A stretch of DNA of 64,000 bases from Cellulomonas xylanilytica (GTDB lineage Bacteria > Actinomycetota > Actinomycetes > Actinomycetales > Cellulomonadaceae). The stretch is taken from NCBI RefSeq assembly GCF_007989805.1, contig NZ_BJUB01000013.1:1-64000 (forward strand), in the 5' to 3' direction. The translations under genes were made by a program, and so were the position numbers. Each line of letters starts with the position of its first letter. Position 1 is the stretch's first letter. Below, piece by piece: positions 12,160-55,870 of the stretch. Below the pieces are notes generated by a model. It had not been told where the DNA came from. It saw only the letters and a program-made list of their open reading frames with translations, and did no database searches.

Positions 12160-12507
12160 TCAGTCCGTGCTCGGCAGCACGTCCACCCCGGCCTCACACA
12201 CCCGCACGACCTCGTACGTGGTGCCCTCCGCGTCGAAGGTCGTGCCCACCGAGACGTCCTCCCGCAGCGGCTCCTCGAGGGACGGCGCCGTCACGCTGAG
12301 GTCGGCCGTCGGCGGGGAGGCGGCCATGTCCACCTCGGCCGCGACGGCTCGCCCGCCGCCCGACAGCGGTGTCGGGACCATCACCGCGATGCGCTCGGCG
12401 GCCTCGTGCACCTCGCCCACGCAGTCCGGGGGGTCGGTCGGCTCGGTGCACCCGGCCAGGACGAGGAGGCACACCGCTGCCACCGGCACGACCTGTCGCG
12501 CTCTCAC
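12160..12507 (-). CDS. small lipoprotein, last gene of the WXG100/calpain operon
   Basis: A 115-residue protein starting at a GTG that overlaps the upstream stop by 4 bp (GTGA). It has a type II signal peptide with lipobox LVLAGC, so mature protein begins at Cys20 and is membrane-anchored outside the cell. The remainder is a small, acidic, probably beta-rich domain with two further Cys that could pair (PPDCVGEV and VVRVCEAG). I do not recognise the family. As the exported, membrane-bound partner at the end of an operon with a WXG100-like protein and a calpain-like protease, it could be an immunity protein, chaperone or inhibitor. That is inference from position only. Confidence 0.75.
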   Translation of the reverse strand: MRARQVVPVAAVCLLVLAGCTEPTDPPDCVGEVHEAAERIAVMVPTPLSGGGRAVAAEVDMAASPPTADLSVTAPSLEEPLREDVSVGTTFDAEGTTYEVVRVCEAGVDVLPSTD

Positions 12508-12752
12508 GTCGCCGCCTCGAGGTCGACGCGGGGGCGGGGCGACGCCTCGACGCGCACCACCGTCCAGGCGAGCCCGGCGAGCTCGACGTGGTCGCCGAGG
12601 CGGAGCTCGTGCTCGACCGTGCGACGGTTCCGCACCACGCCGACGGTGGCGACGGGTGGGTCGTCGCTGACCTCCTTGAGCGCCAGAGCGACTGCCGCGT
12701 CGCCCTCGCCGAGCCGGTACGGGATGCCGGGGCGGACGGTCAGCCGGGTCAC
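12504..12752 (-). CDS. 82-aa hypothetical protein between calpain-like protease and lipoprotein
   Basis: It starts at GTG 12752, overlapping the protease stop by 4 bp (GTGA), and its own stop overlaps the lipoprotein start in the same way, so the three are translationally coupled. No signal peptide or membrane segment is seen. The sequence is mostly predicted beta strand with alternating hydrophobics (HELRLGDHVELAGLAWTVVRV), like a small beta-barrel or SH3-sized domain. I do not recognise a family. Its position suggests a cytoplasmic partner or inhibitor of the protease. Confidence 0.75.
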   Translation of the reverse strand: MTRLTVRPGIPYRLGEGDAAVALALKEVSDDPPVATVGVVRNRRTVEHELRLGDHVELAGLAWTVVRVEASPRPRVDLEAAT

Positions 12753-14218
12753 GGGGTGCCTCCCAGGTCGATGGCCTGGGGAGAGTCGAAGTGCGCCTCG
12801 AACTCGGCCGGGGTGAGCCGCAGCGGCTCGTAGTCGTCGCCCCAGGGGTTGGCCAGCAGGACGTGGTCGTCGGTGATCTCGGTGACGTAGTAGACGTGCC
12901 GCCCGAAGTACCCGGCCTGCAGGTGCTCCGGCACGTCGTCCTTGTCGTCGGAGGACGCCACGATGACCGGCGAGCCGGAGTCGAAGGCGCTCTGCACGTC
13001 CTCGAAGCTCACGTCGAGCCCACGGGACTCGTTCCCGGAGACGTACGGGGGCGCCTTCTCGGTCCAGTCCCACTCCAGCGCGCCGTACGTGCCCTGCTCG
13101 GACCGGTCGTAGAGCGGGTCGCCGTCCTTCCCGTCGGGGGCGCCGCCCTTGTCTCCCTCGTAGAGCAGCGCGAACGCCTTCTCGTAGTAGGCCGGCCACA
13201 GCTCGCCGTCGCCGTGCGCACCGAGCGGCGTGCCGTCGTCGGCCAGCGGGAGCTCGCGCGTCATCGTCACCCAGCGCTCCGTCCCGTCGCGGTCCCAGAG
13301 CCGCACGGAGATGGTGCCGTTGGGGTTCTCCCGGATGTTGCGGGCGATGAGGTCAGGATCCATCTGCGTCGACGCCGCCAGGCTGGCGATGAACCAGCAG
13401 TCGCCCAACCGCCCCTGGTAGACGTCCGTGCTGGACACCCCGTCGGCGAACAGCGGACCCTCGGGGACCCCGTACGTGATGCCGCTCGCGTCCTCGCCGG
13501 TCTGCGGGTTGGCGCCGTCCAGGAAGACGTCGGTGGTGTCGAAGCCCGGCGTCATCCACGGGAAGGCGGACGCCACGTCGTCCAGGTGCGTCGGCCCGGC
13601 GAGGGACAGCAGCGTGCTGGCCAGGGCGATGCGCTCTCCCACGGGGAGGCCGTTGTGGTCGAACGGCGACCACCCGGAGTCGGAGGTGTCCGCGACGGCG
13701 TCGCCGAAGGCCCGGAGGTCGTCGGCGGAGGCGTCGTCCAGGAACAGGTCGAGCTCGGCTGCCGTGAGGCCGGCGAGCAGGTCGGCGATCCGACGGAGGT
13801 CGTCACGGTTGCCGTTGATGCCCGCGTCCAGGTCGGCGAGCCCACGGAGCGCGTCGAGCGCGTCCTGGACGGTGGTCGCGTCGGGCGGCGGGGCGTCCTC
13901 GAACGCGAGGTGGGCGTGCACGTGGTGCCCGTCCTCGAACAGGACCCGGCAGGCCTCGAGGTGGTCGCACCTGCGCTCGATGCTGCCGGCCACCTCCGGC
14001 AGCGACCAGGCCAGCGACGACGGCAGCCCCCACGGGAGGAAGCCCTGCGTCCGACGCAGCGCCGGGCTGCTGGTGGCGGGCCGGCCGCGCAGCGCCCTCT
14101 CGGCGTCGTCGAGGACCGCTGCGACGTCGCGGCGGAGGTCGCCGACGCTCGACCCCGTCCGGCGCAGGTGGACGGCGAACGTCCGCAGGCGTTCGACGTC
14201 GAACCCGGTGTAGCTCAT
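12749..14218 (-). CDS. calpain-family (C2) cysteine protease with helical WXG-like N-terminal domain
   Basis: A 489-residue protein whose ATG overlaps the upstream WXG100-like gene (ATGA). Residues 1-110 are helical and Arg/Leu-rich (GFDVERLRTFAVHLRR), resembling the WXG/LXG-type leaders of type VII effectors. A helical middle region runs to about 245. The catalytic domain (about 260-489) is of calpain type: Cys274 in GRLGDCWFIASLAA, His441 in GRHVYYVTEI and Asn457 in ANPWGDD. No Sec signal is present. The catalytic triad appears complete, so protease activity is likely. The substrate is unknown. Context (WXG100 partner, small protein, lipoprotein) suggests an exported effector or an internally controlled processing enzyme. 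Confidence 0.85.
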   Translation of the reverse strand: MSYTGFDVERLRTFAVHLRRTGSSVGDLRRDVAAVLDDAERALRGRPATSSPALRRTQGFLPWGLPSSLAWSLPEVAGSIERRCDHLEACRVLFEDGHHVHAHLAFEDAPPPDATTVQDALDALRGLADLDAGINGNRDDLRRIADLLAGLTAAELDLFLDDASADDLRAFGDAVADTSDSGWSPFDHNGLPVGERIALASTLLSLAGPTHLDDVASAFPWMTPGFDTTDVFLDGANPQTGEDASGITYGVPEGPLFADGVSSTDVYQGRLGDCWFIASLAASTQMDPDLIARNIRENPNGTISVRLWDRDGTERWVTMTRELPLADDGTPLGAHGDGELWPAYYEKAFALLYEGDKGGAPDGKDGDPLYDRSEQGTYGALEWDWTEKAPPYVSGNESRGLDVSFEDVQSAFDSGSPVIVASSDDKDDVPEHLQAGYFGRHVYYVTEITDDHVLLANPWGDDYEPLRLTPAEFEAHFDSPQAIDLGGTP

Positions 14219-14544
14219 ACGGCTCCCGCCGGCGCGGCCGCCGCGCGCTCCACCTCGTCGGCGAGGTCCTCCAGGCGCTGCGCCTCGGTGATCCAGGAGC
14301 CCGTGTCCGCCACCAGGTCCTCGGCCATCCGCTGGAGCGCGTCGCGCTGCTCCTCGAGGACGGCCGTCGTGTCCCGGGCGTAGGTGCCGTACCAGAGGCC
14401 GGCCGACCGGGCGGTCTCGACGTCGGCGTCCAGGCGCGTCCCGAGCGAGCCCGCGATGCGCCGACCCCGGTCCGCCGCATCACGCAGCGCGGACGCGCGC
14501 CGGCGCAACGACGCTGCACTCTCCCCGTCGGTGAGGGGCAACAT
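14215..14544 (-). CDS. WXG100-like helical protein
   Basis: A 109-residue, almost entirely helical protein with a WYG turn in the middle (AGLWYGTYARD), as in WXG100/ESX substrates, which form a helix-turn-helix hairpin about 100 residues long. The start at 14544 is preceded by GAGGGAG. It overlaps the calpain-like gene by 4 bp, so they are co-translated and probably form a pair whose partner helices lie in that protein's N-terminus. WXG100 proteins are exported by type VII secretion systems. No secretion ATPase or membrane component is present in this window, so export is unproven. The assignment rests on size, helicity and the WxG motif. Confidence 0.65.
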   Translation of the reverse strand: MLPLTDGESAASLRRRASALRDAADRGRRIAGSLGTRLDADVETARSAGLWYGTYARDTTAVLEEQRDALQRMAEDLVADTGSWITEAQRLEDLADEVERAAAAPAGAV

Positions 14545-46357: not shown

Positions 46358-49300
46358 TTGTTCTTTCGCTTGACCAGCGGCGCTCGTCGCGATGCGATCC
46401 GCCGTATCGGGATGACTGCGGCCGCCACAACAACAGTCGTCGTCCTGGCACTGAGCGGCGCTGCCCCCGGAGCGGCGTCCGCGACCGTCCCGCCTACGGA
46501 CGCACCCGAGCCTTCTGCATCGTCGTCACCGGACCCGTCGCCCGCGACGCCCCCTCCAACTCCCGAGCCGACACCGCGGCCGGTCCTCGAGGATGCCGAG
46601 CAAGCGTCTCCGACCGTCACGGCACCGGCGGCGGAGCCGACTGCGTCCGAGCCGAGCGGTCCCGAGGCGCCGGCGCCGGGTGAGAGCTCTCGCCAGGCGA
46701 CGTCCGCCCTGGCGGCGGCCTCCGACGTCTCGGTCCTCGCCGCGGGCGTCCCCGAAGCGCCCGCCCAGCTCTGGCTCGAGGACTTCGAGGGGAGCGCGAC
46801 GCCGGCGCAGCTCGGCACCTACGCCTCCAACCGGTACACCGCGGCGGCCTTCTGGCTGAGCTACACCAACTGCAACGGCGTGATCGTGAACTACACGGCG
46901 ACGTTCCCGGCGACCGGCTTCTGCGGCGCCGCGACCGACGTCGTGCCCCGTAACCAGGTGCGACGCATGGCCGACGTCCTCGGCCAGTACCGCCTCGGCG
47001 TGGTCGGCGGCACCACCAACACCACACCGGTCAACGGCTCCACCTCGGGTGCTTCCGGGTCCCAGGCGAACCGGGCCGTCGCCGCGCTGACGATGACGGG
47101 TGGCACGACGACGGCGAACCAGACGCTCATCGAGTCCGCAGCCGCCGTCGGCCTGACCGCCACCGCCGACCGCTACTACGCGGCGTCCGTCGACGTCGCG
47201 GAGGACTCGTGCTCGGCCCGGCCGGGCGGGGTCAACAACAACTCGCGGCTCGACGTCGCCCTGGTCGTCGGGACGACCGTGTCACCCCTCACCGCGGCGC
47301 CGGTCATCGCCTGCAACGTCACCGGCGGTCGCTACACCTCGCCCACCCTGACGGGCGGGTTCGGCACCGAGACGTCGGTGCGCGCGGGCCGGTTCTTCAC
47401 GGACAGGGCCGTCCGGCTCACCGCGACGCAGGCCGCGCAGGCGCGGATCCGCGTCAGCAACCAGATCTCCGCCTCCGACGGCAACGACGTCGCGATCGAC
47501 AACCTGCGGATCGTCGATGCGACACCGAGCCTCGACAAGGCCTTCGCGACCGACGTCGGCACGGCGGGCACGCCGACGACGCTGACGTTCACGGTCACGA
47601 ACACGGCCGAGCTGGCCGCCAAGACCGACTGGAACTTCACCGATGCCCTGCCGCAGGGTCTCGTCGTCGCCCCGACGCCGGCGGTCGGCGGCACGTGCGC
47701 CAACGTCACCGGCACGGCGTTCTCCGTGCAGGCCGGAGCCGGCGCCACCTCGGTCGTCGTCACCGGGGGCGACCTCGCGGCCAACGCGGTGAGCTGCACC
47801 ATCACCGTCAACGTGGTGGCGCCCGCCCCCGGCACGTTCGTGAACGGTCCGGCCAACGTCACGACCGTGCTCAACGCCCCCGAGAGCGCGACGTTCGTCG
47901 CCGAGGCGCCGGCTCGCATCACGATCCGGAAGAACGTGACGGGGCGAGCCACCGTCGGCGACCAGTTCCGCCTCGCTCTGAGCCTCGGTGCGACCGAGGT
48001 CGCGACGGCCACCACGACGGGGGCCACCACCGGGCTCCAGACCGCGCAGGTCGGGCCGGTCAACGTCACGCGCGGGAGCGTCTACACGATCTCCGAGACC
48101 ATCGTCTCCACGGCCACGCTGAACACCTACACGACGAGCTACCAGTGCCTGCGGGGCACGACCACGATCGCCACGGGTACCTCGATCTCGGGCCCGATCA
48201 CCGTCCCGAACGAGGCAGGCGCCGAGATCGTCTGCACCTTCACCAACACCCCGCAGACGGCGAGCCTCTACTGCGACGGCACGTACTACTACGCCGTCCG
48301 CACGGACGGGTCGATCGTGCAGGTGAGCTCCACCAGCACCGCCGCGCCGACGCAGCTCGTCGGCGCCGTGACCGGTGCGACCGACGTCAACGCCCTCGGC
48401 GTCAACGGCGACGGCACGCGCGCCATGGCCATCGACCGCACGGGCACCAACGGCGTCAACGCCGGCGGCATCATCAACTACGCCATCGTCGGCAGCGCGC
48501 TCCAGGGCACGCGCACGGCCTTCACGGGCACCCAGGGGTCCTTCCTCGACCGCACGGGTGCGTCGCTCGACGGCACGATCATCGCCGGTGCTGTCGACCC
48601 CATCAACGGGCGACTGGTGGTGGGCAAGTCGGTGGTCGGTTCGGTGCGGCTGTGGGAGTACACGCCGACCACGCTCAACAACGGCAGCCGGTTCCTCTAC
48701 CTCGGACAGGTGGCGACGGGAACCACGACCGGGGAGAACGGCGACATCTCCTTCGACGCGCAGGGCAACCTGCACGTCGTGCAGACCGCTGCCGACTCCA
48801 GCAGCGTCGGCATGTTCAGCGTCACCCGGGAGGCGCTCCTCGCCGCGTCCGGCGGCACGATCCCGGCCAGCGCCACCGTCCGCCGGGCGCTCAGCGGCAC
48901 GGACACCGGGTTCGCCCTGGCGGCGGTCAACGGCATGGCCTTCTCCCCGACCGGCGTCGTCTACCTCGGCAACGCGACGTCGGCGTACCAGTTCGACCCG
49001 GTGACGTGGGTGCGCGTGCCGAACAGCCCGCGCGCCACCATCGGCACGACGGCACCGAGCACCGCCACCGACCTTGCCGGCTGCGCGTCGCCGTCGACGA
49101 TCTCGGTCGAGAAGAACGTGGTCGGCCGGCTGAACGCCCTCGACCAGTTCCGTCTCGCTCTGTCGGGCGGGTCGCCGCTCGCCGAGTCGTCCGTCGCGAC
49201 GACGACCGGGACGGCCACGGGTGTCCAGGCCGCACGGATCGGGCCGACGCCCGTGCAGATCAACACGTCCGTCACCATCTCCGAGACCATGGCCACCGGC

Positions 49301-50638
49301 TCCGTGTCCCCGCTGACCGCCTACACCACCGTCTACGAGTGCTGGGCGGACGGGGTGCGGATCCTCACGGGGACGAGCAAGTCCGCCGCGATCACCATCC
49401 CGAACCGCCTGAGCGTCGGGGTCGCGTGCACCTTCACCAACTCGCCGGCACCGTTCGCGACCGTGCGCGTGACAAAGCTGGTCGAAGACTGGAGCGGCGG
49501 CAACCGCACGCCCACCGCCGGCTGGACGATGACGACCACAGCCACCGCCACCACCGGCAGCACCGTCAGCGTCCTCCCCGCGCGGGACCCCTCCCAGGTC
49601 ACCGGAGCGGACGGGACCGCCACCTGGCAGGTGCTCTTCGGTGGCGCGTCGCAACGCGGCCGCGTGACCGTGGCCGAGACGGCTCAGTCGGGATTCCGCT
49701 ACCAGAGCCTCGTGTGCACGGTGAACGGCACGGCCGCGAGCACCACGGTCACGACCGTCGGCAACCAGGTGCGAGGTGCGATCAACGTCGACGTCGCGCC
49801 GGGGGGCGTCGTGGAGTGCGTCTACGCCAACCGGCCGGTCGCCACGCTGTCGCTCGTCAAGAACGTCTCCTTCGGTGGCGCAGCGCCGTCGCTGTGGCAG
49901 CTCGCCGCCACGCGCAGCCTGTCCACGGCACTCGCGGGACCCAGCGGCGCCGGCGGCAGCGGCGCGGTCACCGCGGTGACCGTGTCGGCGGAGACCCCCT
50001 ACCGGCTGTCGGAGACGGGCGGCCCCGCCACCTACGTGCAGGTGGGTGGCTGGTCGTGCGTCACCGCGTCCGGAGCAGTCGTGCCGGTGACCACGGCAGG
50101 AGACGTGAGCCTGACCCGCGGGACCGACGTGACCTGCACGGTCACGAACGCGACAGCCGCACTGACCCTGCTGAAGAACGTGCAGAGCCCCTCGACGGGG
50201 TTCGTGCCGGCCACCTGGAACCTCACCGCGACGCCGGCCGCGCTGAGCGGGTTGAGCGCGACGACCGTCAGCGGTGCGGACTACGCGGCCCTCGGCAACC
50301 CGACCAGCACGATCAGCGTCCGGCCCGGGCACACCTACACCCTGAGCGAGGCGCTCGCGCAGAGCGGGGCGCGGCTCGCCTACCGGCAGCTGCGCCTCGA
50401 GGTGCGTCAGCCGGACGGCAGCTGGACCGCGGTGACGTCGCCGACCATCACGGCCCCGGCGGCCGGGCAGACCGCGGTCTACCGCTTCGTCAACGCCCCC
50501 GTCTCGCCCCCTGTGCTCCCGCTCACCGGCGGGACGAGCAGCGACGCCTTCGTCGTCGGCGGAGGGGCGCTGCTGGTGCTCGCGATCGCGATCGCCGTGT
50601 GGCAGCGACGTCGTCGCAAGGGAGGGAGCGTGATGTGA
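46358..50638 (+). CDS. very large LPXTG-anchored surface protein, probable pilus tip/adhesin
   Basis: A 1426-residue surface protein from TTG 46358 (GGGGGG upstream); ATG 46412 would shorten the signal's basic part. After the signal (about 1-42) and a Pro/Thr/Glu-rich stalk (about 43-115) come a Cys-paired lectin-like domain (about 125-390; LEDFEGSATPAQLGTY), DUF11/CnaB-like modules, a propeller-like segment (about 625-905; TDGSIVQVSS, AVDPINGRLVV, FDAQGNLHVVQ) and further CnaB-like repeats, each opening with KNV and closing in CTFTN or CTVTN. The C-terminus is LPLTG (1387-1391), a hydrophobic helix and RRRR, a sortase substrate. The major pilin and class C sortase genes follow, so it is probably the tip subunit. 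Confidence 0.9.
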   Translation: MFFRLTSGARRDAIRRIGMTAAATTTVVVLALSGAAPGAASATVPPTDAPEPSASSSPDPSPATPPPTPEPTPRPVLEDAEQASPTVTAPAAEPTASEPSGPEAPAPGESSRQATSALAAASDVSVLAAGVPEAPAQLWLEDFEGSATPAQLGTYASNRYTAAAFWLSYTNCNGVIVNYTATFPATGFCGAATDVVPRNQVRRMADVLGQYRLGVVGGTTNTTPVNGSTSGASGSQANRAVAALTMTGGTTTANQTLIESAAAVGLTATADRYYAASVDVAEDSCSARPGGVNNNSRLDVALVVGTTVSPLTAAPVIACNVTGGRYTSPTLTGGFGTETSVRAGRFFTDRAVRLTATQAAQARIRVSNQISASDGNDVAIDNLRIVDATPSLDKAFATDVGTAGTPTTLTFTVTNTAELAAKTDWNFTDALPQGLVVAPTPAVGGTCANVTGTAFSVQAGAGATSVVVTGGDLAANAVSCTITVNVVAPAPGTFVNGPANVTTVLNAPESATFVAEAPARITIRKNVTGRATVGDQFRLALSLGATEVATATTTGATTGLQTAQVGPVNVTRGSVYTISETIVSTATLNTYTTSYQCLRGTTTIATGTSISGPITVPNEAGAEIVCTFTNTPQTASLYCDGTYYYAVRTDGSIVQVSSTSTAAPTQLVGAVTGATDVNALGVNGDGTRAMAIDRTGTNGVNAGGIINYAIVGSALQGTRTAFTGTQGSFLDRTGASLDGTIIAGAVDPINGRLVVGKSVVGSVRLWEYTPTTLNNGSRFLYLGQVATGTTTGENGDISFDAQGNLHVVQTAADSSSVGMFSVTREALLAASGGTIPASATVRRALSGTDTGFALAAVNGMAFSPTGVVYLGNATSAYQFDPVTWVRVPNSPRATIGTTAPSTATDLAGCASPSTISVEKNVVGRLNALDQFRLALSGGSPLAESSVATTTGTATGVQAARIGPTPVQINTSVTISETMATGSVSPLTAYTTVYECWADGVRILTGTSKSAAITIPNRLSVGVACTFTNSPAPFATVRVTKLVEDWSGGNRTPTAGWTMTTTATATTGSTVSVLPARDPSQVTGADGTATWQVLFGGASQRGRVTVAETAQSGFRYQSLVCTVNGTAASTTVTTVGNQVRGAINVDVAPGGVVECVYANRPVATLSLVKNVSFGGAAPSLWQLAATRSLSTALAGPSGAGGSGAVTAVTVSAETPYRLSETGGPATYVQVGGWSCVTASGAVVPVTTAGDVSLTRGTDVTCTVTNATAALTLLKNVQSPSTGFVPATWNLTATPAALSGLSATTVSGADYAALGNPTSTISVRPGHTYTLSEALAQSGARLAYRQLRLEVRQPDGSWTAVTSPTITAPAAGQTAVYRFVNAPVSPPVLPLTGGTSSDAFVVGGGALLVLAIAIAVWQRRRRKGGSVM

Positions 50639-50726
50639 GCCGTTGACCACCCCACCAGCGCTTCCCCGTCCTCAGATCCGAACGACCACCCCGCAACACC
50701 ACTTCTCACCCATGGCAGGAGCCACA

Positions 50727-52250
50727 ATGTCCAGGTCCTTCACCAGGCGGTTCACCGCCGCGATCGGCGCCGTCGTCCTGGCCGCCGGCGCGGCGATGGT
50801 CGCCGTCGCACCCGCGCAGGCGGTCACCCTGCCCGGCAACATCGACCCCGACCAGCCGCGCAGCCTCACGGTGCACAAGTTCGCGCTCGGGCCGGGCAAC
50901 GGTCAGAACGCCGGTACGGGTCAGGAGCTCCCCTCCACGGCCGGCCTCGGCACGCCGCTCCCCGGCGCCGTCTTCACCGCGACGCAGGTCGCCGGTGTCG
51001 ACCTGACGACGCCCGAGGGCTGGGCGATCGCCAACAGCCTGAGCCCGCAGGCGGCGTCGACGCGGCTGACCGGCACGCCGTACACGTCGACCGCCTCGGC
51101 GGCGGACGGTACCGCGACCTTCCCGACCGGGATGCCGCTCGGCCTGTTCTACGTGCAGGAGACGGTGCTGCCCGCCGACGCGACCAACGCGACGGCGCCG
51201 TTCCTCGTCTCGCTGCCGCTGCCGACCGGACCCTCCGGCGCTCCGGCCAACCAGTGGGTCTACGACGTGCACGTGTACCCGAAGAACGCCGTCACCGAGA
51301 CGACGAAGACGCGTGTCCCGGCTCCCGCAAACTCGGAGGAGGCGCGCAACCCCGACCTCATCCGCTGGTCGATCGCGTCGAGCATCCCGACGCTCGCCGC
51401 AGGTGACACGATCACGACGTTCACCCTCACCGACACCGTTCCGAGCGCACTGGTGTTCCCCGCCACGCCTCCCGCGGGTGTCTCGCCGTCGACCGTCACG
51501 GTGACGAACGCCGGGGGGGTGGCTCAGAACTTCGTCGCGGGCGTGGACTACACCATCGTCAGCACGGCTGCGACGTCGACGACGGACGCGACGTCGGTGC
51601 TCACCTTCACCACGGCGGGTCTGACCCGTCTCACCGGTCTGCAGGGGGGTCTGGTGTCGTTCAACGTGCTGACCCGTGCCGTGTCGATCCCGTCGAACGG
51701 TCTGATCACCAACTCGGCGACGGCCAACATCAACGGCTCCACGGAGACGGTGACGGGCACCACCCCGATCGGTCAGCTCACCGTGTTCGCGTTCGAGAGC
51801 AACAACGGTGGCCCGCGCACGCCGCTGGCAGGCGCGGTCTACCAGGTGTACCTGAACCAGAACGACGCGAACAACCAGCAGAACCCCGTCTCGATCAACG
51901 GCACCACCGACTGGACGACCGGCGCCAACGGCTTCGTGGCGATCCCGATCATCACGCCCGGGAACTACTACGTGCGCGAGATCACGCCGCCCGCCGGCTA
52001 CAACGTGCCGCAGAGCAACCCGGTCCAGGCCGTGGTCGTCGCGGGTCCGACGTCGACGGTCCCGCCGGTGCAGAACTACGTCGAGTTCAACCACACCCAG
52101 GTGTCCGTGGCGAACTTCCTCCTGCCGTACACGGGTGGCGACGCTGGTGTGTGGTTCAAGACCGGTGGCATCGCGCTGCTGGCGATCGCCCTCGGTGCCG
52201 CGATCCTCGTGGCGCGCCGGCGTGCGCTCTCCGCACCCACGCACGCGTAG
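50727..52250 (+). CDS. major pilin subunit, SpaH/EbpB family, LPXTG-anchored
   Basis: A 507-residue exported pilin; AGGAG lies six bases before ATG 50727. The signal peptide ends near APAQAV. The pilin motif is VYDVHVYPKNA, with Lys186 the expected isopeptide donor for polymerisation. The E-box is YYVREITPPAGY (Glu418). The sorting signal is LPYTG (466-470), followed by a hydrophobic helix and ARRR. Two CnaB/D2-type folds (about 55-185 and 190-350) carry likely internal isopeptide bonds. It is the repeating shaft protein of a sortase-assembled pilus; the sortase is the next gene. Confidence 0.95.
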   Translation: MSRSFTRRFTAAIGAVVLAAGAAMVAVAPAQAVTLPGNIDPDQPRSLTVHKFALGPGNGQNAGTGQELPSTAGLGTPLPGAVFTATQVAGVDLTTPEGWAIANSLSPQAASTRLTGTPYTSTASAADGTATFPTGMPLGLFYVQETVLPADATNATAPFLVSLPLPTGPSGAPANQWVYDVHVYPKNAVTETTKTRVPAPANSEEARNPDLIRWSIASSIPTLAAGDTITTFTLTDTVPSALVFPATPPAGVSPSTVTVTNAGGVAQNFVAGVDYTIVSTAATSTTDATSVLTFTTAGLTRLTGLQGGLVSFNVLTRAVSIPSNGLITNSATANINGSTETVTGTTPIGQLTVFAFESNNGGPRTPLAGAVYQVYLNQNDANNQQNPVSINGTTDWTTGANGFVAIPIITPGNYYVREITPPAGYNVPQSNPVQAVVVAGPTSTVPPVQNYVEFNHTQVSVANFLLPYTGGDAGVWFKTGGIALLAIALGAAILVARRRALSAPTHA

Positions 52251-52259
52251 CCTGACGTG

Positions 52260-53234
52260 ATGACGACGGAGGCGGGGCGTCCTTCGGGACCCCCGCCTTC
52301 GTCGTCCCCGGACGGCTCCGGGACGACGACGCTCATAAGGCCGGCAAGCCGCCGAACAGGGGGATGGCGGATGCCGTGGATCGCGCTCCTCGTCGCCCTG
52401 ATCGCGGTGCTGGGCGCCGGCCTCCTGCTCTTCCCCACCGTCGTGTCGTGGTTCAGCCAGTACGAGCAGTCGCAGCGCATCGACGACCTGACCGCGGACG
52501 TCGCCGACCTCGGCTCCGCCAAGCTGCAGGAGGAGCTCGACCGCGCCCGCGCGTACAACGAGGACATCGTCGGCGGAGGAGCGAACCTCGTCGCGAACGG
52601 GCGCCTGCCGGTGGCTGACGAACCCGATCCGGCTGGGGAGTACGACACCGTCCTGCGCGCCGACAGGACGGGCCTGATGGCTCGCCTCAAGATCCCGGCG
52701 ATCGACGTCGACCTGCCCGTCTCCCACGGCACGAGCGGGGACGTGCTCGAGCACGGCGTCGGGCACCTCGAGGGCACCGCTCTCCCGGTGGGCGGGGAGT
52801 CCACCCGCTCGGTCCTCACGGCTCATCGCGGCCTCGCGACCGCGGAGCTGTTCACGCACCTCGACAGGGTGGAGGTGAAGGACACCTTCACCATCGAGGT
52901 GTTCGGAGAGGTCCTGACGTACCGCGTCGTCGACACCCGCGTCGTCGAGCCCACGGACGGGGAGAGCCTCTTCCCGGTCGAGGGGCGGGATCTGCTCACC
53001 CTCGTGACCTGCACGCCGCTCGGCGTGAACAGTCACCGCATCCTGGTCACGGGCGAGCGCGTCATCCCCACGCCGCAGGCCGATCTCGACAGCGCCGGTC
53101 AGAGCCCGGAGATCCCGACCTTCCCCTGGTGGGTGCTCATCGCCACCGGCGTGCTGGTCACGGCCGGCGTGTACGTCGAACGGTCCGGACGATCGCGCGC
53201 TCGTCCCGCCGTCGCCACGGGTGGCCAGGAATAG
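52260..53234 (+). CDS. class C sortase (pilin polymerase)
   Basis: A 324-residue membrane sortase. Residues about 40-62 form an N-terminal membrane helix and about 283-303 a C-terminal one, the class C arrangement. Catalytic residues are His189 (LTAHRG), Cys251 (LVTCTPLG) and Arg260 (SHRILVTG). A lid-like segment (YDTVLRADRTGLMARLKIP) precedes the core. It joins pilin subunits through the LPXTG Thr and the pilin-motif Lys. ATG 52260 follows TAGCCT at six bases, whose TAG is the pilin stop, so a second leaderless transcript start is possible. Operon with the two LPXTG genes is clear. Confidence 0.95.
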   Translation: MTTEAGRPSGPPPSSSPDGSGTTTLIRPASRRTGGWRMPWIALLVALIAVLGAGLLLFPTVVSWFSQYEQSQRIDDLTADVADLGSAKLQEELDRARAYNEDIVGGGANLVANGRLPVADEPDPAGEYDTVLRADRTGLMARLKIPAIDVDLPVSHGTSGDVLEHGVGHLEGTALPVGGESTRSVLTAHRGLATAELFTHLDRVEVKDTFTIEVFGEVLTYRVVDTRVVEPTDGESLFPVEGRDLLTLVTCTPLGVNSHRILVTGERVIPTPQADLDSAGQSPEIPTFPWWVLIATGVLVTAGVYVERSGRSRARPAVATGGQE

Positions 53235-53278: not shown

Positions 53279-55870
53279 TCAGGCCTGCATGTCCACGAAG
53301 CGCGAGTAGTGCCCCTGGAACGCCACGACCAACGTGTCGGTCGGGCCGTTTCGGTGCTTGGCCACGATCACGTCGGCCTCCCCGGCGCGGGGTGACTCCT
53401 TCTCGTAGGCGTCCTCACGGTGGAGCAGGATGACGATGTCGGCGTCCTGCTCGATCGAGCCGGACTCACGCAGGTCGCTCATCTGCGGCCGCTTGTCGGT
53501 GCGCTGCTCGGCGCCACGGTTCAGCTGGGAGATGGCGATGACCGGGACCTCGAGCTCCTTGGCCAGCAGCTTGAGCGCTCGGGAGAACTCGGAGACCTCC
53601 TGCTGCCGGGACTCGACGCGCTTCCCGGAGGACATGAGCTGCAGGTAGTCGATGACCACGAGCTTGAGGTCGTGCTTCTGCTTGAGCCGCCGGCACTTGG
53701 CGCGGATCTCCATGAGGGACATGTTCGGGGAGTCGTCGATGAACAGCGGCGCCTCGGAGATCTTGCCCATGGTCGCGGCGATCTTGGCCCAGTCGTCCTC
53801 ACCCATCTGACCGTTGCGCAACTTCTGCAGGTGCACACGCGCCTCGGCGGACAGCAGACGCATGGTGATCTCGTTGCGGCTCATCTCGAGCGAGAAGACG
53901 ACCGACGTCATGTTGTGCTTGATCGACGCCGACCGGGCGATGTCGATGCCCATCGTCGAGTTGTGCGTCGGGATCATCGCTCGGCCGGCGAGGTACAGGT
54001 GCGAGGGGTGTGCGATCTCGACGCAGCGAACCGGCACGCTGTCGATCGGCTCGACGGACACGATGAATCGCTGAGTCAGACGCGCGGTCGACTGGCGGCG
54101 GCGTTCCTTGTGGACGAGTCGCTTGCGCTCGAGAGCGAACACCTCGTCGTCCGTGGTGAACGTCAGCGTGTAGGCGATCGACGAGGCCTCGGTGCGGCCC
54201 GCGACCCGCTTGGTGGACCATCCCGTGCGGTATCCCAGCGAGTGCACGAGCTCGCGCACGTCCTCTGCAAGACGTCGGCTGGTCAGGGAGATCTGCGGCG
54301 AACCCGTCGGGTTCACGGTGCCGTCCGTATCGAGGAGCCCCGCAAGCAGGTCGCGTCGCTGCTGCTCGCTCGCGCGCAGATAGGCCCCGGGGATGTGCTT
54401 GTTCCCCAGGACACCGAGCGTGCGAAGTCGACCGTGAACGGTCCCGTTCGCGTCGTGGCACGGCTGGCACCGAAGGAGGCCGCTCGTCTCGACGCCGCAG
54501 TCCGGGCAGGTCGGCACGGGCACCGGGCCGGTGAGCGTCTTCACCTTGCCGCCGCAGGAGCGCCCGCAGGTGCGGACGTGCGAGCGCCTCGGAACGAACG
54601 AGGCGCCACAGACTTGGCACGAGCGCTCGCCGACCATGGCAACCGGCAGCTGGATCGAGTACAGCCGCGCGGGCCCTGAGGCCGAGCCGGCTTCCCGGGC
54701 GACGAGGCCACGACCCTCGATCAGCATGGCGATCTCTGGGTCAGCGCTGGTGAAGCGCGCCGAGGCCGAGTGACCGTCCCCGAGCCACACGCCGAGCGCG
54801 TACGGGTCGATCGGAAGCTCCGCCTCCGGCAGACGCAGCGCGGTGGCCGTGGCGACCGAGTGGTTGGCGCGGCCGTCGGCGGTCGCGCACCGCACGCTCG
54901 CGTGGATCTCCTCGGTCGTGCGGATCGCCGAGAGCCCCTGGTTCCGTCGGCGCTCGGCCCGGGTGCTGGTGGCCCACTGGTGCAGAGCGTCCGCGACGAT
55001 CTCGCTGCCGTCGTCGAACGTGACGCGGTAGGTCGGCCGACCGACGAGCACCTCGGTGGCACCGACGACGCGCGTCGGCGTGCCGTCGGCGGCGAGGAGC
55101 TCGTCGCCGACGCGGACCTCGCCCATCGTCATCCAGCCCGTCGGTGTGGGCAGAGGCGTGTCGAGCGCGAGCGCCTTGCCGATGGCGGGACGCGCCGCGA
55201 GCACGATCATCTGTCCGGGGTGCAGCCCGTTGGTCAGCCGGTCCAGGTCCGAGAACCCCGTCGGGACGCCGATCATGCCCTCGCCGCGGTGGCCGGCGGC
55301 CTCGATCTCGTCGACGGCGCCGCCGATGATGTCGCCGAGGATCAGGTAGTCCTCCGACGAGCGCCGCTCGGTGACCGCGTAGACCTCGGCCTGGGCGTTG
55401 TTGACGATCTCGTCGACGTCGCCGCCGTCGGTGCCGTAGCCGAGCTGGACGATCCGGGTGCCGGCCTCGACGAGCTTGCGGAGCACGGACCGCTCACGCA
55501 CGATCCGCGCGTAGTAGCCGGCGTTCGCGGCGGTGGGGACCGACGAGATGAGGGTGTGCAGGTACGGGGCGCCGCCGATGCGCTGGATCTCGCCGCGCTT
55601 GGTCAGCTCGTCGGCGACCGTGATGGCGTCGGCCGGCTCGCCGCGGCCGTACAGGTCGATGATCGCGTCGTACACGACCTCGTGCGCCGGCCGGTAGAAG
55701 TCGGTGCCGCGGATCTGCTCGACGACGTCGGCGATGGCGTCCTTCGAGATCATCATGCCGCCGAGCACGCTGCGCTCGGCGTCGAGGTCCTGCGGCGGGG
55801 TGCGGTCGTAGCCGCCGCCACCGCGGTTGGTACCCGACGGCGCGCCGTACTCGAGCTCCTCGATCGTCAT
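53279..55870 (-). CDS. dnaB: replicative DNA helicase DnaB, with in-frame intein
   Basis: An 863-codon gene: 458 residues of DnaB interrupted after Lys232 of the Walker A motif (ARPAIGK | ST) by a 405-residue intein. The DnaB N-terminal domain (about 20-150; LDAERSVLGGMMISKDAI) and RecA-like C-domain (VFSLEMSRNEITMRLLSAEA; VVIDYLQLM; SGSIEQDADIVILLHRED) are both complete. DnaB unwinds DNA at the replication fork. Removal of the intein is essential for activity because it splits the ATP site. ATG 55870 is chosen because upstream codons lack homology. Gene order with rplI matches mycobacteria, although a MATE gene is inserted here. Confidence 0.96.
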   Translation of the reverse strand: MTIEELEYGAPSGTNRGGGGYDRTPPQDLDAERSVLGGMMISKDAIADVVEQIRGTDFYRPAHEVVYDAIIDLYGRGEPADAITVADELTKRGEIQRIGGAPYLHTLISSVPTAANAGYYARIVRERSVLRKLVEAGTRIVQLGYGTDGGDVDEIVNNAQAEVYAVTERRSSEDYLILGDIIGGAVDEIEAAGHRGEGMIGVPTGFSDLDRLTNGLHPGQMIVLAARPAIGKALALDTPLPTPTGWMTMGEVRVGDELLAADGTPTRVVGATEVLVGRPTYRVTFDDGSEIVADALHQWATSTRAERRRNQGLSAIRTTEEIHASVRCATADGRANHSVATATALRLPEAELPIDPYALGVWLGDGHSASARFTSADPEIAMLIEGRGLVAREAGSASGPARLYSIQLPVAMVGERSCQVCGASFVPRRSHVRTCGRSCGGKVKTLTGPVPVPTCPDCGVETSGLLRCQPCHDANGTVHGRLRTLGVLGNKHIPGAYLRASEQQRRDLLAGLLDTDGTVNPTGSPQISLTSRRLAEDVRELVHSLGYRTGWSTKRVAGRTEASSIAYTLTFTTDDEVFALERKRLVHKERRRQSTARLTQRFIVSVEPIDSVPVRCVEIAHPSHLYLAGRAMIPTHNSTMGIDIARSASIKHNMTSVVFSLEMSRNEITMRLLSAEARVHLQKLRNGQMGEDDWAKIAATMGKISEAPLFIDDSPNMSLMEIRAKCRRLKQKHDLKLVVIDYLQLMSSGKRVESRQQEVSEFSRALKLLAKELEVPVIAISQLNRGAEQRTDKRPQMSDLRESGSIEQDADIVILLHREDAYEKESPRAGEADVIVAKHRNGPTDTLVVAFQGHYSRFVDMQA
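53960..55174 (-). mobile_element. DnaB intein with class 3 (WCT) features and LAGLIDADG endonuclease
   Basis: The 405-residue insert begins with Ala1 (ALALDTPLPT) instead of Cys/Ser and ends IPTHN before extein Ser. It carries all three class 3 markers: Trp67 in block B (LHQW), Cys384 in block F (VRCVEIAHPSH) and Thr403 in block G. A LAGLIDADG endonuclease is inside (LGVWLGDGH about 127-135 and LLAGLLDTDG about 275-284). Between the two motifs are two zinc-knuckle-like Cys clusters (CQVCG...CGRSCGG and CPDCG...CQPCHD). Confidence 0.9.

Follow-up and report, generated by a model that had tools for sequence, protein, structure and literature searches.

A bacterial calpain-fold protease encoded with a WXG-like protein and two DUF6406 proteins as a candidate type VII effector cassette

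The operon and its protein products

The window analysed here is a 64,000-nt stretch of contig NZ_BJUB01000013.1 from Cellulomonas xylanilytica (GCF_007989805.1), within which the operon occupies positions 12160–14544. An earlier note on this DNA described four coupled genes, and we find all four on the minus strand, with three 4-bp overlaps in the sequence (ATGA, GTGA and GTGA). The features are listed from the first gene to the last, with the regions of the protease given in residues.

14215–14544, minus strand: gene 1, WXG100/EspC-like helical hairpin protein, 109 aa (W51-Y-G53; EspC below cut-off)
14215–14218, minus strand: ATGA overlap of the WXG-like stop and the protease start, read from the sequence
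12749–14218, minus strand: gene 2, calpain-fold (C2) cysteine protease, 489 aa (PF00648; C274/H441/N457)
Gene 2, residues about 1–105: N-terminal helical hairpin
Gene 2, residues about 106–240: helical middle region with an NGNRDDL motif
Gene 2, residues about 245–489: protease core with C274/H441/N457
12749–12752, minus strand: GTGA overlap of the protease stop and the DUF6406 start, read from the sequence
12504–12752, minus strand: gene 3, DUF6406 protein without a signal peptide, 82 aa (PF19944 above cut-off)
12504–12507, minus strand: GTGA overlap of the DUF6406 stop and the lipoprotein start, read from the sequence
12160–12507, minus strand: gene 4, lipoprotein with a diverged DUF6406 domain, 115 aa (lipobox; PF19944 below cut-off)

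None of the four proteins matched a family in PADLOC or in NCBIfam.

By its profile match, catalytic residues and modelled core fold, gene 2 is assigned to the calpain family (C2) of peptidases, and proteolysis is its predicted activity. It scores 51.1 bits against PF00648 (Pfam cut-off 23.8), the only match to this model in the whole genome. The catalytic residues C274, H441 and N457, noted before as a complete set, are invariant in all 28 aligned relatives, an alignment that covers 28 of 114 related proteins. In an AlphaFold2 model (pLDDT 87, pTM 0.83) the N-terminus forms two long helices, 8–42 and 67–95, and a Foldseek search with this model places human calpain cores at the top (E = 7.2e-11), with calpains filling the first 35 matches; the model agrees with the helical N-terminus joined to a calpain domain that had been proposed from the letters alone. 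The solved structures nearest to gene 2 by sequence are also calpains (best E = 3.7e-9).

Gene 1 has the size (109 aa) and the W-x-G motif of WXG100/ESAT-6 proteins. The motif is the previously remarked WYG turn, W51-Y52-G53, and both W51 and G53 are invariant across the 17 aligned upstream genes (of 35 in total). The protein reaches neither the WXG100 nor the EspC curated cut-off in Pfam, scoring 19.0 bits against EspC (PF10824; cut-off 23.5); at E ≤ 0.01, five of the 17 aligned members match EspC and two match WXG100. None of the 17 has the type VII export motif [FY]xxx[DE] in its C-terminal half. Gene 1 is probably the export partner of the protease.

The third and fourth proteins, which the earlier note had left as ‘unrecognised’, turn out to match the same model. 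Gene 3 scores 36.0 bits against PF19944 (DUF6406; Pfam cut-off 26.9). Gene 4 scores 20.7 bits (E = 5e-4), under that cut-off, and matches an iterated profile clearly at E = 1e-14, the profile containing gene 4 itself. Its diverged DUF6406 domain spans about residues 43–104, and its lipobox (LAGC, Cys20) identifies the lipoprotein that the note had placed among the last two genes. We therefore rejected the idea that genes 3 and 4 are unrelated orphans; judged from their sequences, they form one family with predicted locations in two compartments.

A model of the 82-aa protein is all-beta, with 8 strands (pLDDT 94.5), and has no clear relative in the PDB. Among the matches listed for it there is no protease inhibitor, and no staphostatin, the fold of which is a lipocalin-like barrel. 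Across 36 aligned DUF6406 members, almost all of them cytosolic, P11, V65 and L78 are invariant, G53 is kept in 35 and Y12 in 34. DUF6406 occurs beyond calpain systems: in 394 genomes of the class, 33 of the 44 matches over the cut-off do not adjoin a PF00648 match, by our comparison of the two sets of matches. By our own reading of the neighbourhoods, some of these calpain-distant genes adjoin a SecA2-like gene.

Calpain loci in other genomes

A profile scan of genome contigs with the 28-protein calpain alignment yielded 40 loci. In 38 of these (L032–L069) the calpain has a DUF6406-like gene with it, and none was found at L070 and L071; from this retention we conclude that the operon is not a random string of ORFs. 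The gene order, the conservation of which had been put forward as a check on the earlier reading, is thus conserved, and a small gene with a putative immunity role lies at the calpain in these 38 of 40 loci, as an immunity gene lies beside a toxin. A separate WXG-like gene is found directly upstream of the calpain in 34 of the 38 loci; in the other four (L060, L065, L067 and L068) a weak WXG-like match falls inside the protease N-terminus. The DUF6406 complement includes a cytosolic protein in 25 loci (26 entries, L055 being counted twice, the second time for an ORF that has two domains and no detected lipobox) and consists of a lipoprotein alone in 13. An ORF with two DUF6406 domains is present in 21 of the 38, L044 and L055 among them. 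At L064 the lipoprotein gene lies upstream of the WXG-like gene.

Two broader searches were carried out, one at the level of the family (150 genomes, 30 matched; neighbours read at 29 loci, L003–L031) and one at the level of the class (394 genomes, 56 matched; neighbours read at the best 30 loci, L081–L110, of which L099 and L102 duplicate L046 and L049). A calpain gene was called at 98 loci, and in seven of them (L003–L006, L088, L097 and L105) the protease has a pseudopilin-like N-terminus, G-x4-E-Y followed by a hydrophobic helix, which we take to be the Flp/TadE prepilin signature of a Tad pseudopilin. Downstream of each of these seven calpains come one to three lipoproteins with a match to the DUF6406 or the lipoprotein profile (E = 3e-3 at the weakest locus), and at none of the seven loci was a cytosolic DUF6406 copy recognized. 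Tandem lipoprotein copies adjoin two of the seven (L004 and L005).

A further 21 calpains are short (L008–L019 and L021–L029), and 20 of them have a WXG-like match. Each of the 21 is followed by a protein of 66–110 aa without a lipobox that matches profile A3, which was built from 11 of these small proteins; the other 10 served as a test and matched at E = 4e-13 or better. L092 combines a WXG-type calpain with a lipoprotein. No DUF6406-like partner was recognized at L007, L020, L030 or L031, nor was any partner at L107, where the protease gene was not called. Likewise, no DUF6406-like neighbour was recognized at the 23 loci of group f25, named Frankia-like here since one and the same 598-aa protein start is seen at L087 and at L070, a Parafrankia locus; a calpain is therefore not always accompanied by such a gene.

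Across the 60 WXG-type loci (the 38 above, the 21 with short calpains and L092), a cytosolic DUF6406 copy is present in 46, compared with none of the seven pseudopilin loci (Fisher p = 1.3e-4, uncorrected for kinship). The compartment of the DUF6406 partner differs with the export signal of the calpain. An inhibitor or immunity role predicts such a pattern, with the partner tracking the calpain core and its compartment tracking the site at which active protease could do harm.

Type VII secretion ATPases in carrier genomes

The earlier note saw no type VII secretion genes in the window, and we likewise find no EssC-type ORF in its 64 kb. At the genome level, where the note had suggested looking for such a system, an EssC-type ATPase (TIGR03928, E ≤ 1e-80) is present in all 37 carrier genomes searched (L050 was left out), including this one. 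The lowest best EssC score among the 37 is 486 bits. A single control genome of 14, Bacillus subtilis, matched in the EssC-type search, and canonical EccCb is found above its cut-off in 20 of the 37 carriers. EccB gave no match in this genome and none in the control genomes, so that its zero count is uninformative.

The ATPase of this genome (1,548 aa; contig 12, L074:7171–11817) scores 561 bits for EssC (cut-off 778), 424 for EccCa (509) and 322 for EccCb (347). One neighbouring gene encodes a WXG100-like protein, whose match (E = 2e-5) stays under the cut-off. Another, preceded by a 100-aa gene and followed by a 154-aa gene, encodes a protein of 682 aa that contains a DNA/RNA non-specific endonuclease domain (NS_2). 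In 10 of the 38 loci an ATPase gene and the calpain are no more than 10 kb apart, the nearest at 0.8 kb (L045), in a count for which the flank was shorter than 9.2 kb on one or both sides in seven of the 38. Most of these ten loci share one Streptomyces arrangement, so that the ten amount to about three independent cases; L056 and L066 are incomplete at the edge.

Such ATPases are widespread in related bacteria. Of 18 genomes checked from the same genus or family, 17 have the match (E ≤ 1e-80). The exception is G079, which carries a pseudopilin calpain; three other pseudopilin-calpain carriers searched alongside it do have an EssC-type match. In the class, all 20 PF00648-bearing genomes have the match, as do 70 of the 128 others (Fisher p = 1.9e-5). 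This comparison has genome size and kinship as confounders and rests on a cross-table joined by genome handle that takes the 148 genomes as G000 and G186–G332. Both the frequency of the ATPase in the class as a whole (90 of 148) and the number of carriers over the EssC cut-off of 778 (0 of 37) count against an effector reading.

Proposed function and known counterparts

On balance, we favour the view that the operon is a type VII effector cassette encoding a secreted calpain and its cognate inhibitors in two compartments, in which we infer the export, the inhibition, the pairing and the target. A composite export signal would arise when the WXG-like protein pairs with the calpain's helical N-terminus, and the EssC-type ATPase, the gene for which lies elsewhere in the genome, would export the complex. 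In the cytosol, the folded calpain would be bound and held in check by the 82-aa DUF6406 protein. On the outer side of the membrane the DUF6406 lipoprotein would restrain it and so shield the producer and its kin, and the exported protease might cut competitor or envelope proteins. Several observations speak against this view: the many DUF6406 genes away from calpains, the Frankia-like calpains with no recognized DUF6406-like neighbour, the sub-threshold profile scores of the WXG-like protein, its missing export motif and the lack of a protease inhibitor among the matches listed for the DUF6406 model. The effector or processing module envisaged in the earlier note is supported in part, by the conserved gene order and by the EssC-type ATPase in every carrier searched; neither of these two checks gave the outcome that the note had named as refuting. 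Its idea of cytosolic and membrane-side inhibitors has become stronger, both because the two small proteins belong to one family and because DUF6406 stays with the calpain when one export signal is replaced by another. More tentatively, calpain-linked DUF6406 proteins may be bacterial inhibitors dedicated to these proteases, analogous to calpastatin and arranged as a two-compartment pair. The core of calpain and inhibitor would then be modular, carried on either a WXG hairpin or a Tad pseudopilin, and the location of the inhibitors would follow the export route.

The exported calpain might instead mature or turn over envelope proteins of the producer itself, with the DUF6406 proteins as regulators or activators and not immunity proteins. 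We consider this unlikely. The full-length calpain protein is conserved across several genera, unlike fast-changing toxin tips, and the single PF00648 match in this genome would also suit self-directed processing, but the linkage of the calpain, in some genomes, to genes for an EssC-type ATPase and WXG100-like proteins, the nuclease gene with its small neighbours at the ATPase of this genome and the tandem lipoprotein copies at L004 and L005 all argue against it. A role for the DUF6406 proteins as chaperones or adaptors in calpain export, in place of inhibition, strikes us as quite improbable. In its favour, 38 of 40 loci encode them next to the protease, and a cytosolic copy was seen only with WXG-type calpains; however, a chaperone that acts before export would be of no use as a lipoprotein outside the membrane, lipoprotein partners are still present at all seven calpains with a pseudopilin-like N-terminus, and the part of a partner is already taken by the WXG-like gene.

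We give even less credence to a calcium-triggered zymogen that is silent in the cytosol and active outside, with the DUF6406 proteins as a back-up. Calcium site 1 looks intact in gene 2, where G260, D265 and E339 align with the residues of this site in human calpain 1 (those of rat calpain 2 are given in PMC4631099), but they are kept in only 19, 22 and 17 of the 28 relatives, and for this reason calcium switching was dropped as a family-wide feature.

Several described systems resemble the proposed effector cassette. TslA–TilA–TlaA of Staphylococcus, in the portion of PMC10730906 available to us, is a four-gene T7SS cassette with a toxin, small helical partners and an immunity lipoprotein, so that lipoprotein immunity is known for a T7SS lipase (TslA/TilA). 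It differs in having a lipase instead of a calpain, the reverse gene order, two helical partners and a single immunity gene, which encodes a lipoprotein, whereas two DUF6406 genes are the candidate inhibitors here. In the TelC/TipC pair, TipC is described as a membrane immunity protein (PMC6193138). A cysteine protease gene adjoining a small inhibitor gene is also found in the staphopain–staphostatin and Bacteroides Bfp–Bfi pairs (PMC2873492), in which the Bfi inhibitors are assigned by sequence to the periplasm and membranes; a title cited in that article ties staphostatin B to cytoplasmic control. These proteases belong to C47 and C10, not C2, the available text mentions no WXG partner, and we saw no sequence link between the staphostatin or Bfi inhibitors and DUF6406.

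Cpe1–Cpi1 (PMC12136450), as presented in the available part of the article, is an interbacterial papain-like cysteine protease toxin with an adjacent immunity protein, and our operon likewise has a cysteine protease with an adjacent putative immunity gene; Cpe1–Cpi1 differs in its delivery by T6SS and CDI, in its Gram-negative bacteria and in a protease that is not a calpain. In the collection of Zhang 2012 (PMC3482391), Imm35 accompanies Tox-PL1 as an immunity protein for a papain-like toxin, as proposed here, and Imm65, stated to be the sole lipoprotein of the collection, is a lipoprotein immunity protein like candidate gene 4; the word ‘calpain’ is absent from the available text.

WXG–calpain fusions and their interpretation as T7SS toxins are already in print, as far as the accessible portion of PMC4631099 (Rawlings 2015) shows: proteins of Herpetosiphon and Segniliparus combine a WXG100 with a calpain domain, as in our operon, and a reviewer in that article calls them likely T7SS toxins. 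A partner, an immunity gene or an operon is not described in that portion. In the available texts on bacterial calpains, WXG100, DUF6406, and T7SS cysteine proteases and immunity proteins, we found no description of the operon and did not meet the calpain–DUF6406 pairing or the pseudopilin variant, the last not having been sought by name; no mention of DUF6406 was found in the literature searched.

The operon supplies a bacterial calpain with small, testable partners and yields a functional hypothesis for DUF6406. Across the wider set of loci, one protease core is found with two unrelated export signals.

ATPase loci of the source genome

The genome of Cellulomonas xylanilytica that supplied the window carries two ATPase loci:

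L074 (contig 12), 292-15084: EssC-type ATPase, grouped with a gene for a WXG100-like protein and a nuclease gene flanked by small genes
L075, 5602-9258: second FtsK/EssC-type ATPase, shorter, 1,218 amino acids

The genes that directly adjoin the first group are, on our reading, presumably those of a Tad pilus. No WXG genes were seen beside the second ATPase in its neighbourhood at L075. In Cellulomonas sp. Leaf334, the counterpart 682-amino-acid nuclease-like gene is followed by three tandem genes encoding 153-154 amino acids (L076:5911-7380), whereas one small gene follows in the source genome. Adjacency to Tad genes has been reported for T7SSg and T7SSh of Bacillota (PMC11217815), and the text of that paper does not mention Cellulomonas.

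Pilin and helicase genes in the window

Two further features lie within the window:

46412-53234: two SpaA-type pilin-domain proteins and a sortase
53279-55870: DnaB helicase, 863 amino acids, with a LAGLIDADG homing-endonuclease match

From its gene content, the first is probably a sortase-built pilus cluster. Because the LAGLIDADG match sits between DnaB parts, the helicase probably contains an intein.

Calpain architectures and DUF6406 proteins in other genomes

At seven loci (L003-L006, L088, L097 and L105), a pseudopilin-like N-terminus, G-x4-E-Y plus a hydrophobic helix, replaces the WXG hairpin of the calpain, and DUF6406-like lipoproteins come after the protease. As we read the neighbouring genes, rpoC-like and rpsL-like genes flank these calpains in L003, L004 and L006. 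DUF6406 proteins, the candidate calpain inhibitors, also occur with no calpain nearby (L111-L138, for example L116-L118), both as stand-alone lipoproteins and as cytosolic proteins adjoining a SecA2-like gene. Among unusual reading frames, one encodes both protease and lipoprotein (L044:9992-12268), another protease frame is broken into two (L054:10001-11497), and a single open frame of 9,009 codons contains six separate calpain-domain matches (genome G545, contig 1, 4789819-4803120).

Motif at the protease N-terminus

Within the first 105 residues of the window protease (12749-14218, reverse strand) and its relatives, [FY]xxx[DE], the type VII export motif, occurs in 25 of 28 proteases, versus 10.8 in shuffled sequences. 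By eye, these matches are mostly Y/F-x-G-F-D at the extreme N-terminus, and the pattern suggests an export-like motif in an unusual location.
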